Source: Rubrivivax sp. (GTDB taxonomy: Bacteria > Pseudomonadota > Gammaproteobacteria > Burkholderiales > Burkholderiaceae_C). Taken from it: 64,000 nucleotides of DNA. Below the pieces are notes generated by a model. That model had not been told where the DNA came from and did not search any database. It was given only the letters and a program-made list of their open reading frames with translations. The stretch covers positions 1 through 64,000 of the forward strand of contig JAIXSE010000022.1 of NCBI GenBank assembly GCA_027484825.1, given 5' to 3'. This document shows positions 5,902 through 30,585 of the stretch, piece after piece; position 1 is the first letter of the stretch, and each line of letters opens with the position of its first letter. The translations under genes were made by a program, and so were the position numbers.

Positions 5902-7766
<1,865 letters not shown>

Positions 7767-7961
7767 TAATAAAAACTGGACATGAGGGTTGTCGCCTGAA
7801 ATACCTCTTGACGGCAAGTTCGGGGCGGCGGACATTGCACCAACGCGGTTCGCCCCCCCCACAAGGGTGCGCGGCTGTGCTGTCCACAAATAAAAACAAT
7901 CGAGTCGAAGAGAAGAGACCTCAACGGTTTGCAGTCGATTTCTGACGCTGCCCAGCGCCGC

Positions 7962-9182: not shown

Positions 9183-10691
9183 ATGCAGACCCACGGTACA
9201 GCGGCCAGTCACCAGCGTTTCGAGGCGCCGGAGCGCCACTTCGCGGGGATGAGTGCCGATTTTCTGGCTCGAATCGTCGCCGCCGCGTCCGACGTGGCGC
9301 TGGTCGTGGACAGCCAGGGCGTCATCCGCGATGTCTCCCTGGGCGCCTCGGCCGCCGCCGAACTGTCCGAATTGCGGCAGTGGGTCGGTCGGCGCTGGTC
9401 CGAAACCGTGACCATCGAGAACCGCGGCAAGGTGCAGGCCATGTTGTCCGCGGGGCAAGCGGCTTCGGCGTCCAAGACCGCTGCTCTTCCCGTGATGCCG
9501 GAGCGCCAAGTCACCCACGCCCTGTCCGGCGGCATCGACCTGCCCATCAGCTACAGCATCGTCCCGCTGGACGAGCTGGGCGGCGTACTGGCCCTGGGGC
9601 GCGACCTGCGCGAAGTGGCGGCCGTGCAGCAGCGTCTGGTCGATGCACAGCAGTCGATGGAACGCGACTACCTGCGCCTGCGTCACACCGAAGCCCGCTA
9701 CCGTCTGCTGTTCGAGGCGGTCGATGAAGCGGTGCTGGTGCTGGACGCCAGCTCGCTGGTGGTGTTTGAACACAATGCGGCGGCGACGCAACTGCTGGGC
9801 GAGGTCGGCAAGCGCCTGATCGGCCGCAGCCTGCTGGACGTGCTGCAGGCAGACAGCCAGGCCGATGCCCAGGCCGCGCTGGCCCAAGCCCGCAGTGGCG
9901 GGCGCTGCGACGATCTGCCGGTGCAGCTGGCTGCCAGCGCCGGTGCGAAGGGGCCGGGGGCGACACTGCATCTGTCGGCATCGGCCTTCCGCCAGGACAG
10001 CACGACCTTGCTGCTGGCCCGTTTGTCGGCCGCTCAGCCGTCCGCATCGGCGGGCAAGGCGGCACAGGGCGATGGGGCCCCCTCCTTGCTGGATGTGGTG
10101 AACACACTGCCCGACGCCTTTGTGCTGACGGACATGCAAGGGCGCATCCTCAGCGCCAACCAGGCCTTCAGCGACATGCTGCAGTTGCCGCCCGGCGAAG
10201 CCGTGGTGGGACAGCCCCTGGACCGCTGGCTGGGTCGCACCTCGGTGGACATGAGCGTGCTGATCGGCAACCTGCGTCAGCACGGCGTGCTGCGCCTCTT
10301 CCCCACCACGCTGCGCAGCGGCTTCGGTGAGGCCAGTCCGGTGGAAGTGTCGGCGGTGGCGGTGCCCGACGGCCGTCAGGCCTGCCTGGGCTTTGCCATC
10401 CGCGACGTGGCCCGGCGGCTGCCTGCGGAGACGCGACCGACGCGGCAACTGCCCCGGTCGGTGGACCAGCTCACCGGGCTGGTGGGTCGTCTCCCGCTCA
10501 AGGACATCGTCGGCGAGACCACCGATCTCATCGAGAAACTCTGCATCGAAGCCGCCCTGGAACTGACCCGCGACCATCGCGCTTCCGCCGCGGAAATGCT
10601 GGGTCTCTCGCGTCAAAGCCTCTACGTGAAGCTGCGCCGCTACGGCATTCTGGGCGACTCGACCCAGGATGACACGATGGCGTCAGACTGA
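9183..10691 (+). CDS. ppsR: PpsR/CrtJ, redox-responsive repressor of photosynthesis genes
   Basis: Transcription factor binding TGT-N12-ACA sites. 502 residues from ATG 9183; residues before MQTHGT in the track ORF look non-conserved. Order: N-terminal PAS-like domain (about 20-140), a Q-linker helix (VQQRLVDAQQSMERDYLRLRHTEARYR), two PAS domains (about 180-290 and 305-420), and a C-terminal Fis-type HTH (CIEAALELTRDHRASAAEMLGLSRQSLYVKLRRYG). Three cysteines are present: one in the first PAS after the linker (SGGRC), one in the second (QACLG), and one at the start of the HTH, where the family's redox cysteine lies. A paralogue without HTH is at 39837. Confidence 0.95.
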   Translation: MQTHGTAASHQRFEAPERHFAGMSADFLARIVAAASDVALVVDSQGVIRDVSLGASAAAELSELRQWVGRRWSETVTIENRGKVQAMLSAGQAASASKTAALPVMPERQVTHALSGGIDLPISYSIVPLDELGGVLALGRDLREVAAVQQRLVDAQQSMERDYLRLRHTEARYRLLFEAVDEAVLVLDASSLVVFEHNAAATQLLGEVGKRLIGRSLLDVLQADSQADAQAALAQARSGGRCDDLPVQLAASAGAKGPGATLHLSASAFRQDSTTLLLARLSAAQPSASAGKAAQGDGAPSLLDVVNTLPDAFVLTDMQGRILSANQAFSDMLQLPPGEAVVGQPLDRWLGRTSVDMSVLIGNLRQHGVLRLFPTTLRSGFGEASPVEVSAVAVPDGRQACLGFAIRDVARRLPAETRPTRQLPRSVDQLTGLVGRLPLKDIVGETTDLIEKLCIEAALELTRDHRASAAEMLGLSRQSLYVKLRRYGILGDSTQDDTMASD

Positions 10692-10701
10692 CGCCCGTCG
10701 G

Positions 10702-10720
10702 TGTCACCTTGGTGATGACA
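10702..10720. promoter_or_regulatory. Imperfect upstream PpsR-like dyad (TGT-N13-ACA)
   Basis: TGTCACC...GATGACA resembles the PpsR half-sites, but the spacer is 13 rather than 12 bp. Its right half is exactly 26 bp from the right half of the perfect site before bchG, the spacing seen at crtE and bchC. It may be a degenerate cooperative site or part of the ppsR 3' end. Confidence 0.45.
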
Positions 10721-10728
10721 CTGCTCAA

Positions 10729-10768
10729 TGTAAATCTATATTGACAACCCGCTGCATCGGCCCAGAAT
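10729..10768 (+). promoter_or_regulatory. bchG promoter with perfect PpsR operator
   Basis: TGT-N12-ACA at 10729-10746 is a perfect PpsR/CrtJ consensus. Its right half is the -35 box TTGACA (10741-10746). A plausible -10, CAGAAT (10763-10768), follows after 16 bp. The bchG ATG at 10776 lies 7 nt past the -10 and no Shine-Dalgarno sequence is seen. Confidence 0.85.
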
Positions 10769-10775
10769 AGGCCGC

Positions 10776-11654
10776 ATGCAGCGCCCCGCCCTGTCGGCCA
10801 TTGCCGAACTGCTCAAGCCCATCACCTGGTTCCCTCCCATGTGGGCTTTTGCCTGCGGGGTGGTGGCCTCGGGCCTGACCGTTGATGGCCGCTGGCCGGT
10901 CATCGTGGCCGGCGTCCTGCTGGCCGGGCCCTTTGTCTGCGCGACCAGCCAGGCGGTCAACGACTGGTTCGACCGCGAGGTCGACGCCATCAACGAACCG
11001 CAACGCCCGATTCCGTCCGGCCGCATGCCGGGCCACTGGGGCTTGTACATCGCGGTGTTGTGGACGCTGCTGTCGCTGCTGCTGGCCTGGCAGATCGGCG
11101 TGGTGGGTTTCTTCGCCGCCGCCTTCGGTCTGCTGCTGGCCTGGGCCTACAGCGCGCCGCCGCTGCGACTCAAGCGCAATGGCTGGTGGGGCAATGCGGC
11201 CTGCGGCCTCTGCTACGAAGGGCTGGCCTGGATCACCGGCGCGGCCGTGATGGCGATGGGGCAGTGGCCGGATGGCCGCTCGCTGTCGCTGGCGCTGCTC
11301 TACAGCCTCGGTGCCCACGGCATCATGACGCTGAACGACTTCAAGTCCATCCCGGGTGACCGGCAGATGGGCATCCGGTCCCTGCCGGTCATGCTGGGCG
11401 CCCCGCGTGCGGCGCAGGTGGCGTGCGCCGTGATGGCGCTGCCGCAGTTCGTCGTCATCGGGCTGCTCGGCCTGTGGGGGCAGACCGGCCATGCGCTGGC
11501 CGTCACCCTGCTGCTGGTGGCGCAAGCCGTGCTGATGCGCCGCTTCCTGGCGGAGCCCCTGTCGCGCGCCCGCTGGTACAGCGGCTTCGGCGTGCCGCTG
11601 TATGTGGCCGGCATGCTGGTCAGTGCCTTTGCCTTGCGAGGGGTGGTGACATGA
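10776..11654 (+). CDS. bchG: BchG, bacteriochlorophyll synthase
   Basis: UbiA-family prenyltransferase that esterifies bacteriochlorophyllide a with geranylgeranyl or phytyl diphosphate in the membrane. 292 residues with multiple hydrophobic segments. The prenyl-diphosphate motif NDWFDREVDAINEPQRPIPSG is at residues 62-82, and a second acidic motif LNDFKSIPGDRQMGIRSLPV follows. The stop overlaps the next gene by ATGA. It opens the bchG-...-bchD plus-strand block and sits behind a PpsR-controlled promoter. Confidence 0.96.
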   Translation: MQRPALSAIAELLKPITWFPPMWAFACGVVASGLTVDGRWPVIVAGVLLAGPFVCATSQAVNDWFDREVDAINEPQRPIPSGRMPGHWGLYIAVLWTLLSLLLAWQIGVVGFFAAAFGLLLAWAYSAPPLRLKRNGWWGNAACGLCYEGLAWITGAAVMAMGQWPDGRSLSLALLYSLGAHGIMTLNDFKSIPGDRQMGIRSLPVMLGAPRAAQVACAVMALPQFVVIGLLGLWGQTGHALAVTLLLVAQAVLMRRFLAEPLSRARWYSGFGVPLYVAGMLVSAFALRGVVT

Positions 11655-20359: not shown

Positions 20360-20388
20360 TTGTCAACTAAAGTGGACAAGCATAAGAT
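20360..20388 (+). promoter_or_regulatory. crtI promoter with perfect PpsR operator, shared with bchO
   Basis: TGT-N12-ACA at 20361-20378 matches the PpsR/CrtJ consensus exactly. It overlaps a -35 box TTGTCA (20360-20365); a -10 box TAAGAT (20383-20388) follows after 17 bp. The crtI ATG at 20395 falls at the expected transcription start, and no Shine-Dalgarno sequence precedes it. The same operator is only 7 bp from the bchO start on the other strand and could control both. Confidence 0.87.
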
Positions 20389-20394
20389 AAATGC

Positions 20395-21969
20395 ATGTTG
20401 ACACCAACCCAGGCCATCGCCAACGGTTATCCGTCCCAGCCGCATGCCGTGGTCATCGGCAGCGGATTCGGTGGTCTGGCGGCGGCTGTCCGGCTGGGCG
20501 CCCGGGGGTACCGGGTGACCGTGCTGGAGCAACTGGATGCGCCCGGGGGGCGCGGCTACGTGCATCGGCAGGACGGCTTCACCTTCGACGCCGGCCCCAC
20601 CGTCATCACCGCGCCCTTCCTGTTCGAGGAGTTGTGGGCCCTGTGCGGTCGCCGTCTGGCCGACGATGTGGACCTGCGGCCAGTGTCACCGTTCTACCGC
20701 GTGCGCTTCCATGATGGCACGAGCTTCGACTACAGCGGCGATGCGGAAGCGATGCGACGCGAAGTGGCCCGTCTCTCCCCGTCCGATGTGGACGGCTACG
20801 AGCGCTTCCTCCAGGCCAGCGAAGCCATCTACCGGGTCGGCTTCGAGCAGCTGGGGCATGTGTCCTTCGAGCGCTGGACCGACATGGTCCGCGTGCTGCC
20901 CGACCTGCTGAAGCTGGAGGGTTACCGCACCGTCTGGGGGCTGGCCTGCAAGCATGTGAAGAACGAGAAGCTGCGGGTGGTGCTGACTTTCCAGTCGCTG
21001 CTGGTGGGCGGCAACCCGTTCGCCACCACCTCGGTCTACTGTCTCATCGCCTTTCTTGAGCGGCGCTTTGGCGTGCACTTCGCCATGGGCGGCACCGGGG
21101 CGCTGGTGCGGGGGTTGGTGGATCTCATCAATGGGCAGGGTGGCCGTGTGCGCTGCGGTGTGTCGGTGCAGGAAATCCTGGTGGAGGATGGTGCGGCCTG
21201 CGGGGTCCGGCTGGCCTCCGGGGAACGGATCGCGGCGGATGTGGTGGTCTCCAATGCCGATGCGGCCTGGACCTATCGCCATCTGCTGCCGGCCCGCCAT
21301 CGCCGCCACTGGACCGACCGGCGCATCGAGCGCGCGCGCTACTCCATGAGCCTGTTCGTCTGGTACTTCGGCACCCGGCGCCAATATCCGGACGTTGCGC
21401 ATCACACGATTTCATTGGGCCCGCGGTATCGCGGCCTGCTGGACGACATCTTCACCCGCAAGCATCTGGCCGACGACTTCAGCCTCTACCTGCACCGCCC
21501 CACCGCCACCGATCCCAGCCTGGCCCCTGCGGGCTGCGACGCCTTCTATGTGCTGTCGCCGGTCCCGCACCTGGAGGCGGGCGTCGATTGGCAGACACGG
21601 GCCGAGCCCTACCGGGCGGCGATTGAGAAGCGGCTGTCGGAGACCTTGCTGCCGGGCCTGGCGCAGGAGGTCATCAGTTCGCTGATGCTGACCCCGCAGG
21701 GCTTTGAGGACCGGCTCAGCGCCTACAAGGGCGCCGCCTTCTCCCTGGAGCCGGTGCTGACCCAGAGCGCCTGGTTCCGCCCGCACAACCGCAGCGAGGA
21801 GGTGGAGCGGCTCTACCTCGTCGGGGCGGGCACCCATCCCGGCGCCGGTCTGCCCGGCGTGCTGTCGTCCGCGCGGGTGCTGGATGCGGTCGTGCCTCAC
21901 GCCCGTGACCTGCCCCGCCGTGTTTCCCATCCGATCCAGGAGGGCCTTGCCCATGTCCGACCCGCATGA
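20395..21969 (+). CDS. crtI: CrtI, phytoene desaturase
   Basis: FAD-dependent membrane-associated desaturase converting phytoene to neurosporene or lycopene. 524 residues. N-terminal FAD motif VIGSGFGGLAAAVRLGARGYRVTVLEQLDAPGGRGY; C-terminal LYLVGAGTHPGAGLPGVLSSARV, typical of CrtI. ATG 20395 is preferred; the overlapping ATG at 20391 opens a different short frame. The 3' end overlaps crtB by 17 bp. Starts the crtI-crtB-hemA-orf56 unit under a PpsR operator. Confidence 0.96.
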   Translation: MLTPTQAIANGYPSQPHAVVIGSGFGGLAAAVRLGARGYRVTVLEQLDAPGGRGYVHRQDGFTFDAGPTVITAPFLFEELWALCGRRLADDVDLRPVSPFYRVRFHDGTSFDYSGDAEAMRREVARLSPSDVDGYERFLQASEAIYRVGFEQLGHVSFERWTDMVRVLPDLLKLEGYRTVWGLACKHVKNEKLRVVLTFQSLLVGGNPFATTSVYCLIAFLERRFGVHFAMGGTGALVRGLVDLINGQGGRVRCGVSVQEILVEDGAACGVRLASGERIAADVVVSNADAAWTYRHLLPARHRRHWTDRRIERARYSMSLFVWYFGTRRQYPDVAHHTISLGPRYRGLLDDIFTRKHLADDFSLYLHRPTATDPSLAPAGCDAFYVLSPVPHLEAGVDWQTRAEPYRAAIEKRLSETLLPGLAQEVISSLMLTPQGFEDRLSAYKGAAFSLEPVLTQSAWFRPHNRSEEVERLYLVGAGTHPGAGLPGVLSSARVLDAVVPHARDLPRRVSHPIQEGLAHVRPA

Positions 21970-28081: not shown

Positions 28082-28099
28082 TGACGCGACTTCCGGTTG

Positions 28100-28117
28100 T
28101 GTCTATTCTGGTTGACG
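28100..28117. promoter_or_regulatory. PpsR-type operator 1, crtD/crtE
   Basis: TGT-N12-ACG. Differs from the consensus only in the last base. It lies 26 bp (start to start) from the perfect site at 28126, leaving 8 bp between them. The pair sits in the 90-bp gap between the divergent crtD and crtE starts. Confidence 0.82.
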
Positions 28118-28125
28118 AACTGTAA

Positions 28126-28143
28126 TGTAATTCCGCACTGACA
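28126..28143. promoter_or_regulatory. PpsR-type operator 2, crtD/crtE
   Basis: Perfect TGT-N12-ACA. Ends 28 bp before the crtE ATG. A possible crtE promoter TTGTGT-N18-TGTAAT (28097-28126) would be covered by both sites, but it is weak. Confidence 0.85.
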
Positions 28144-28171
28144 TGCGGAGGAATCTGGAGCTCAGGCCGCT

Positions 28172-29050
28172 ATGTCCTATGACGACCGGATTGAACGGGC
28201 CCTGCGGGCCAGCCTGGTGCCGGCCTTGCAGCCGGGCCATCCCCCTCAGTTGGCGGCTGCCGTGCAGCATGCGGTGTTTCCGGGCGGGGCCCGGATCCGT
28301 CCCAAACTGACGCTGGCGGTGGCGCAGGCCTGCGGGGAAGACGATGCCCACCTGACCGATGGCGTGGCGGCGGCGATCGAACTGCTGCACTGCGCCTCCC
28401 TCGTGCATGACGATCTCCCGTGTTTTGATGATGCGCAGACGCGACGGGGCCGACCCTCGGTGCACAACGCCTTTGGCGAGCGGCTGGCAGTGCTGGCCGG
28501 GGATGCACTGATCGTGGCGGCCTTCGAGGTGCTGGGCCGAAGTTGCCGGCAGCATCTGTCGCGACTGCCGGTGCTGATCCGCTCGGTGACGCAGGGCGTG
28601 GGCATGCCGCTGGGCATCGTGGCGGGGCAGGCCTGGGAATGCGAGCCGCAGTTGTCGCTGGCGGACTATCAGCAGGCCAAGACCGGCGCCCTGTTCGCGG
28701 CGGCCACCATGGCCGGTGCGCAGGCGGCCGGCGCCGACGGCGAACCCTGGCGGGCCCTGGGCGAGCGGCTGGGTCAGACCTATCAGGTCGCTGACGACAT
28801 CCGCGATGTGGTGCTGGATGCCGAGGTGCTGGGCAAGCCAGGCGGGCAGGACGTGGCCTTGGATCGCCCCAGCTACGCCCGCAGCCTGGGCCTGGACGGG
28901 GCCATGGCGGAGTTTCAGCGGCTGGTGCAGGCGACCCTGCTGACCGTGCCGCTCTGCCCCGGCGCCTCGCAGTTCCGTCAGCTCATCCGTCGAGAAGCGG
29001 ACCGGCTGGTGCCGCAGCAACTCTGCGCCCGGGTGGCGTCCACCGTGTGA
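28172..29050 (+). CDS. crtE: CrtE, geranylgeranyl diphosphate synthase
   Basis: Polyprenyl synthase making the C20 precursor for carotenoids and for the bacteriochlorophyll tail. 292 residues. First aspartate-rich motif HDDLPCFDD at about residues 82-90, with RRGRPSVH after it; second motif VADDIRDVV. A GGAGG and a GGAG lie 12-20 nt upstream. First gene of crtE-crtF, under the paired PpsR-type sites. Confidence 0.94.
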   Translation: MSYDDRIERALRASLVPALQPGHPPQLAAAVQHAVFPGGARIRPKLTLAVAQACGEDDAHLTDGVAAAIELLHCASLVHDDLPCFDDAQTRRGRPSVHNAFGERLAVLAGDALIVAAFEVLGRSCRQHLSRLPVLIRSVTQGVGMPLGIVAGQAWECEPQLSLADYQQAKTGALFAAATMAGAQAAGADGEPWRALGERLGQTYQVADDIRDVVLDAEVLGKPGGQDVALDRPSYARSLGLDGAMAEFQRLVQATLLTVPLCPGASQFRQLIRREADRLVPQQLCARVASTV

Positions 29051-30496: not shown

Positions 30497-30514
30497 TGTA
30501 AATTCAGGTTGACG
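30497..30514. promoter_or_regulatory. PpsR-type operator 1 before bchC
   Basis: TGT-N12-ACG. Its right half forms the -35 box TTGACG (30509-30514), followed after 16 bp by a -10 TAGGAT (30531-30536). This is the likely start of the bchC-X-Y-Z-puf transcript. Confidence 0.83.
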
Positions 30515-30522
30515 TTTTGCGG

Positions 30523-30540
30523 TGTAAGCGTAGGATGACT
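30523..30540. promoter_or_regulatory. PpsR-type operator 2 before bchC
   Basis: TGT-N12-ACT, a weaker match that overlaps the -10 box. It is exactly 26 bp from the first site, the same distance as at crtD/crtE, which supports cooperative binding on one DNA face. Confidence 0.72.
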
Positions 30541-30543
30541 TTC

Positions 30544-30585
30544 ATGGACACCTTCCACACCCCCTGCCACCGGGCCCTCTCATGA
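30544..30585 (+). CDS. Candidate 13-residue upstream ORF coupled to bchC
   Basis: ATG 30544 lies 7 nt after the -10 box, exactly where transcription should start, so it would be read from a leaderless 5' end. The frame encodes MDTFHTPCHRALS and stops at a TGA overlapping the bchC ATG (ATGA). Ribosomes could reinitiate on bchC. It is too short to judge by composition; evidence is geometry only. Confidence 0.4.
   Translation: MDTFHTPCHRALS

Follow-up and report, generated by a model that had tools for sequence, protein, structure and literature searches.

The bchG start region in the photosynthesis gene cluster

The window (the whole stretch of 64,000 nucleotides analysed here) comes from a Roseateles-like beta-proteobacterium and is its photosynthesis gene cluster; the nearest named relative of its bchG is that of R. 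terrae (93% in protein). As read in the window, bchH-bchB-bchN-bchF lie in this order on the minus strand. After bchF come an AerR/PpaA-like gene, which was named by its position and a weak corrinoid-protein match, and then ppsR, bchG, a gene at the place of ORF440, bchP, bchI, bchD, crtI and crtB, on to puf. The gene bchG, for the last step of bacteriochlorophyll synthesis, begins after an 84-bp gap behind the ppsR stop codon (Table 1). The ppsR product matched the NCBIfam PpsR-CrtJ equivalog TIGR02040 with 465 bits (cutoff 275), and the cognate regulator for the operator at bchG is present in the genome, directly upstream of this gene.

Table 1. Positions of the genes, promoter elements and operon heads in the window
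Feature	Position	Strand	Description
bchF head	7716..7782	-	TTGACA-N17-TAGATT-N7-ATG; ATG 7718-7716
ppsR	9183..10691	+	502 aa from ATG 9183; regulator gene directly upstream of bchG
Alternative promoter-like pair	10715..10742	+	ATGACA-N16-TATATT; overlaps the operator; 10/12 consensus
PpsR operator, TGT-N12-ACA	10729..10746	+	TGTAAATCTATATTGACA; exact match; predicted
-35 box TTGACA	10741..10746	+	right half of the operator; read from the sequence; promoter scan pair 10/12; TTGAC[AG] conserved
-10 box CAGAAT	10763..10768	+	16-nt spacer from the -35 box; followed by 7 nt and the ATG at 10776
Predicted transcription start	G10774 to A10776, A10776 preferred	+	predicted from the -10 distance and the CrtJ ruler (10746 + 30 = 10776)
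bchG, bacteriochlorophyll synthase	10776..11654	+	292 aa; TIGR01476 and NF005742 above cutoff; predicted leaderless ATG start
crtI head	20360..20397	+	TTGTCA-N17-TAAGAT-N6-ATG; PpsR site 20361-20378
bchC head	30497..30585	+	tandem PpsR-like sites 30497-30514 and 30523-30540; -10 TAGGAT

The earlier note on this DNA had described an exact TGT-N12-ACA palindrome with TTGACA as its right half, an ATG 7 nt past CAGAAT and the lack of a Shine-Dalgarno (SD) sequence before bchG, and all three were found again. CAGAAT is a weak -10 box (4/6). The ATG is the only ATG, GTG or TTG in its open frame, which opens at -42. With an anti-SD tail that is a generic approximation, the SD duplex energy at bchG was -2.4 kcal/mol vs a mean of -8.4 kcal/mol for pufL and -3.3 kcal/mol for random 18-mers; bchG therefore has no SD sequence. 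The cluster's own pufL has a strong SD sequence, so this lack is not an organism-wide trait. A second palindrome 8-9 bp away, which allows cooperative binding, is typical of PpsR/CrtJ promoters and not strictly needed; in the window, no TGT lies 8 bp past the ACA of the bchG operator.

The bare palindrome is unremarkable in number. Eight copies of TGT-N12-ACA occur in the window vs 6.2 expected, and this count was ruled out as evidence. Copies with a TTGACA right half numbered 15 in the 5.66-Mb genome, and the reversed control gave 8. A two-box promoter is expected less often, 0.04 times per window, by a search pattern built on the bchG sequence itself. The significance of the arrangement at bchG therefore rests on its position and conservation.

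Some further features of this region were noted. The inverted repeat GGTGTCACC...GATGACAC (10700-10721) was rejected as a second operator or a terminator because of its N13 spacing, the lack of a T-run, its lack of conservation in relatives and an ordinary folding score (z = -1.1). The structure of the predicted mRNA 5' end is also ordinary (z = 0.36). The -10 box is flanked by short inverted arms (GGCC-CAGAATA-GGCC, 10759-10773), which form a dyad centred on it. This dyad is also found in the Roseateles group (L002-L007, L202-L206), including L005 with AGCC-CAGAATA-GGCT.

Conservation of the bchG start region

Eighty bchG loci were fetched from named genomes and compared together with the window. 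The [T/C]GT...TTGAC[A/G] operator, with an ATG 28-31 nt after its TTGAC[A/G] half-site, is kept in 77 of the 81 loci, a count that overstates independence because the loci are related, even after clustering into 60 clusters below 85% identity. The start codon is ATG in all 77; of the other four loci, one lies on a truncated contig and three have no TTGAC box. In 16 loci the BchG N-terminus is longer by 3 to 20 residues, which places the start 9-60 nt upstream in the alignment, without a change in the 28-31 nt between operator and ATG. Among the bchG loci the promoter-to-ATG distance has a standard deviation of 0.96 nt, vs 13.8 nt for the start in the protein alignment, and at other distances 0.6% of the codons are in-frame ATG. 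Because the operator distance holds while the length of the N-terminus varies, the start codon appears to track the promoter and not the protein. This comparison supports what had been claimed before, a PpsR site at the -35 position and an ATG at the transcription start.

The downstream half of the promoter is conserved as well. Over the 60 clusters, a -10-like hexamer at 16-18 nt spacing is enriched over shuffled spacers (z = 12.7), and in 52 clusters 6-7 nt separate its end from the ATG. When the best two-box promoter was taken for each locus, 58 clusters had the end of the -10 box between -9 and -5 relative to the ATG. The SD energy over the bchG set is -1.96 kcal/mol on average vs -8.37 for pufL (p = 1e-14). 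In the alignment of the ppsR-bchG gap in the Roseateles group, only TGTAAA, TTGACA, an invariant CAGAAT and the ATG stand out, and the rest is poorly alignable. The elements of the bchG head, their spacing and their conservation are shown by the sequences themselves. A C at -1 before the ATG (73% of clusters) was also considered as an initiator signature and rejected, since the SD-led control pufL has C at -1 in 27/30 cases.

The position of the operator can be compared with a mapped promoter. CrtJ has two palindromes at R. capsulatus bchC, an upper one at -47 to -30 and a lower one at -21 to -4 relative to the mapped transcription start (PMC5362033). When the upper palindrome is laid on 10729-10746, the +1 falls on 10776, the A of the bchG ATG; in both promoters TGT-N12-ACA spans the -35 region, and the positions match exactly. 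A second TGT exactly 8 bp after the first site, as in the lower R. capsulatus palindrome, is found in 43 of the 60 bchG clusters and was lost in the Roseateles group. Unlike R. capsulatus bchC, the window and this group have no second palindrome over the -10 box, and here the predicted +1 is the ATG itself.

A wider draw of 399 Pseudomonadota genomes gave 31 with bchG, and 30 loci were classed by reading. The TTGAC geometry was found in 15 of them, one with a GTG start (L217). Another nine belong to the family f55, which we take to be Rhodobacterales; their operator is of the lower kind, ending 2-3 nt before the ATG (e.g. TGTCAACTTATCCTGACActcATG), and they have no SD sequence. The lower CrtJ palindrome, used as a ruler, puts the predicted +1 of these loci at or next to the ATG. 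L215 is a variant, and L234 is ambiguous. The four loci without an operator (L210, L211, L214 and L235) have a plausible start with an SD energy of -6.4 kcal/mol or lower.

The probable explanation, in which we have good confidence, is that bchG has a PpsR-repressed promoter whose -35 box is half of the operator, and that its transcript is leaderless, beginning with the AUG or no more than about 2 nt from it. The gene would be served by its own promoter in the gap behind ppsR. As the TTGACA box is the right half of the operator, PpsR and RNA polymerase would exclude each other there. From the position of CAGAAT, transcription would begin on the A of the ATG or about 2 nt from it at most, and the bchG mRNA would thus be leaderless and translated from a 5'-terminal AUG without an SD sequence. 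What we infer is that PpsR binds the operator, that sigma contacts the boxes, where exactly the 5' end lies, and that the message is translated as a leaderless one.

The chief local alternative is the promoter-like pair farther upstream, ATGACA (10715-10720)-N16-TATATT (10737-10742). It would start the transcript near 10749, with a leader of about 26 nt that has no SD sequence, and PpsR would cover its -10 box. Its consensus match equals that of the main pair, and its local score, by promoter weights that are generic approximations, is slightly higher (14.8 vs 12.8); however, the position is not conserved, with a mean score of 1.3 vs 11.9 over the 60 clusters, and TATATT falls within the operator's variable middle. 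Use of this pair would also leave the fixed operator-ATG distance and the conserved CAGAAT unexplained, and a 26-nt leader without an SD sequence would be odd because the bchF relatives with leaders carry one (see below). The use of this pair is considered improbable.

Transcription of bchG, and SP70 and PpsR in relatives

In R. depolymerans, deletion of SP70 (an RpoH-like sigma factor) reduced the mRNA of bchG to 12.02% and that of ORF440 to 14.17%, with a minimal effect on ppsR (PMC10037100); these figures are rough, as they come from single-sample RNA-seq. They also describe a relative of the window's organism, since the published SP70 primer of R. depolymerans 61A has no exact match in the genome studied here. 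Since the loss of SP70 cuts bchG and hardly affects ppsR, bchG of R. depolymerans seems to have its own promoter, and most of its mRNA would not come from ppsR read-through. The two genes are co-oriented at a short distance, and no terminator was found in the gap, so that bchG could also be transcribed mainly by read-through from ppsR or from further upstream, with an internal AUG and no SD sequence. That reading is very unlikely in view of the conserved promoter in the gap and the drop of bchG, but not of ppsR, to 12% in the SP70 mutant (PMC10037100). Read-through as the only source of bchG mRNA, which the earlier note had named as the case against its claim, is contradicted in the same mutant.

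The preferred reading, a bchG promoter at the operator, narrows which promoter the SP70 dependence of R. depolymerans bchG must act on; transcription there would also need SP70, directly or indirectly. It is rather doubtful that SP70 itself, and not RpoD, reads the bchG promoter, with CCCAGAAT-like and CTAGATT-like -10 boxes as its signature. This alternative concerns only the sigma-70 detail and is compatible with a leaderless start. The mRNAs of bchG, bchF and bchC are SP70-dependent in R. depolymerans (PMC10037100), and bchG and bchF share a CC(C/T)AGA(A/T)T core. However, the RpoH boxes (-35 CTTGAA, -10 of the CCCCATNT type) are absent at bchG, where the boxes are TTGACA and CAGAAT with only a loose CCCA match, and classical RpoH boxes were not found in the R. 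depolymerans cluster by its authors either (PMC10037100). The CCCAGAAT motif was not supported as an SP70 signature because the window shows no enrichment of it over chance. Moreover, crtI is SP70-independent (PMC10037100) and has a similar -10 box (TAAGAT), relatives have ordinary TA-type -10 boxes, and the SP70 effect may be indirect.

Binding of a beta-proteobacterial PpsR is known from Rubrivivax gelatinosus, where its footprints at pucB and crtI cover tandem sites with a spacing of 8 or 9 bp, and the pucB footprint overlaps the -35 and -10 boxes (PMC4452267). The gene bchG lay outside that study (PMC4452267). Unlike pucB and crtI, the single palindrome at bchG cannot show an effect of the 8- or 9-bp spacing.

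Other operon heads of the cluster

The earlier note had stated that bchG repeats the arrangement at bchF. The geometry is indeed the same; the left half of the -35 site at bchF, however, is CGT (CGTCAATCTGGATTGACA) and not TGT, and it is kept as CGT in most relatives (L082-L111). Two PpsR-like palindromes are found at the bchF head on the minus strand, TGTCCAGTTTTTATTACG (7782-7765) and CGTCAATCTGGATTGACA (7766-7749); these palindromes, TGT-N12-ACG and CGT-N12-ACA, share two bases.

The bchG-like geometry at bchF was found in 19 of 30 loci. In seven others (L083, L090, L092, L098, L101, L102 and L109) the promoter is intact and the ATG lies tens of nt further downstream. An SD energy of -5.8 kcal/mol or stronger at the plausible start was found in 7/7 of these displaced loci vs 1/19 of the loci with leaderless geometry (Fisher p = 1.2e-5, which is indicative because the displaced group was defined post hoc). 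The bchF loci are a natural control, in which a predicted leader comes with an SD sequence and a predicted leaderless start goes without. The claim of an ATG at the transcription start is thus also supported by the SD sequence appearing only where the ATG is displaced, in addition to the conserved -10-like hexamer and the R. capsulatus bchC ruler. In L095, the bchF promoter has an ATG at leaderless distance that does not share the frame of the matched BchF start, which may be an upstream ORF or a sequence error.

At crtI, TTGT[AC]A-N17-TAnnAT-N6/7-ATG was found in 17 of 30 loci. Unlike at bchG, it is the left operator half that overlaps the -35 box here. This bears on the proposal that the operator-ATG distance reflects only a repressor roadblock at the start codon, the true transcript beginning elsewhere. 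PpsR operators do lie near the start codon at several genes; but crtI and the presumed Rhodobacterales bchG place the operator otherwise, yet keep the -10-like hexamer 6-7 nt before the ATG and have no SD sequence. This proposal is regarded as highly improbable. In nearly all relatives with leaderless geometry (among L142-L158), crtI opens with ATGTTGACA or ATGTTGACG as its first three codons, and in the window (20361-20403) with ATGTTGACA, which suggests a further PpsR half-site inside the coding start.

At the bchC head, the ATG at 30544, on the predicted +1 of the promoter, opens a 13-codon ORF whose TGA overlaps the bchC ATG (30582). An out-of-frame ORF of 13-27 codons with the same overlap (ATGA) is also found in L115, L116, L119, L133, L137, L138 and L139. 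The ATG at the predicted +1 lies in the bchC frame in L118, L120 and L122, where it lengthens BchC; in L124, L129 and L141 bchC starts with this ATG. A leaderless leader peptide coupled to the bchC start is possible.

The heads of bchG, bchF and crtI, and that of bchC via its short upstream ORF, may form a leaderless PpsR/CrtJ regulon across the Alpha-, Beta- and Gammaproteobacteria, in which the operator would fix RNA polymerase so that the +1 is the start codon. This broader proposal is tentative, at somewhat under an even chance. Its parts, a PpsR operator over the -35 box and leaderless mRNA, are already known; no description of leaderless photosynthesis mRNAs, or of operon heads at which operator, +1 and start codon are coupled in a conserved way, was found in the open-licence papers searched. 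Leaderless mRNAs are known in the beta-proteobacteria Burkholderia cenocepacia (PMC4603805) and Cupriavidus metallidurans, where they make up 4.67% of primary transcription start sites (PMC7563307). In these species, as proposed here, the promoter -10 box replaces the SD sequence directly before the ATG. Their leaderless sets are enriched for transcription regulators, whereas here the geometry is common to several operon heads of one metabolic cluster, together with one regulator.

The control by PpsR/CrtJ has been studied as DNA binding, and the translation of these mRNAs is little addressed in the open-licence literature. The route of leaderless translation responds to stress and to initiation-factor levels. 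Should these operon heads be leaderless, the synthesis of bacteriochlorophyll would be tied to this responsive route, and photopigment synthesis would depend on 5'-AUG initiation (initiation-factor balance, 70S initiation), which would add a translational layer over redox control. At bchC, a leaderless leader peptide would then be coupled to the start of the enzyme. The arrangement would also fix the start codons of bchG, bchF and crtI, and predicts for phototrophic proteobacteria that the +1 is the A of the ATG.

The crtE site at 28126, 46 nt from the ATG at 28172, was rejected as a copy of the bchG geometry, as it has no TTGACA and its pair of sites is common with the divergent crtD. Between the starts of crtD and crtE (28097-28172), this common pair of PpsR-like sites lies about 8 bp apart.
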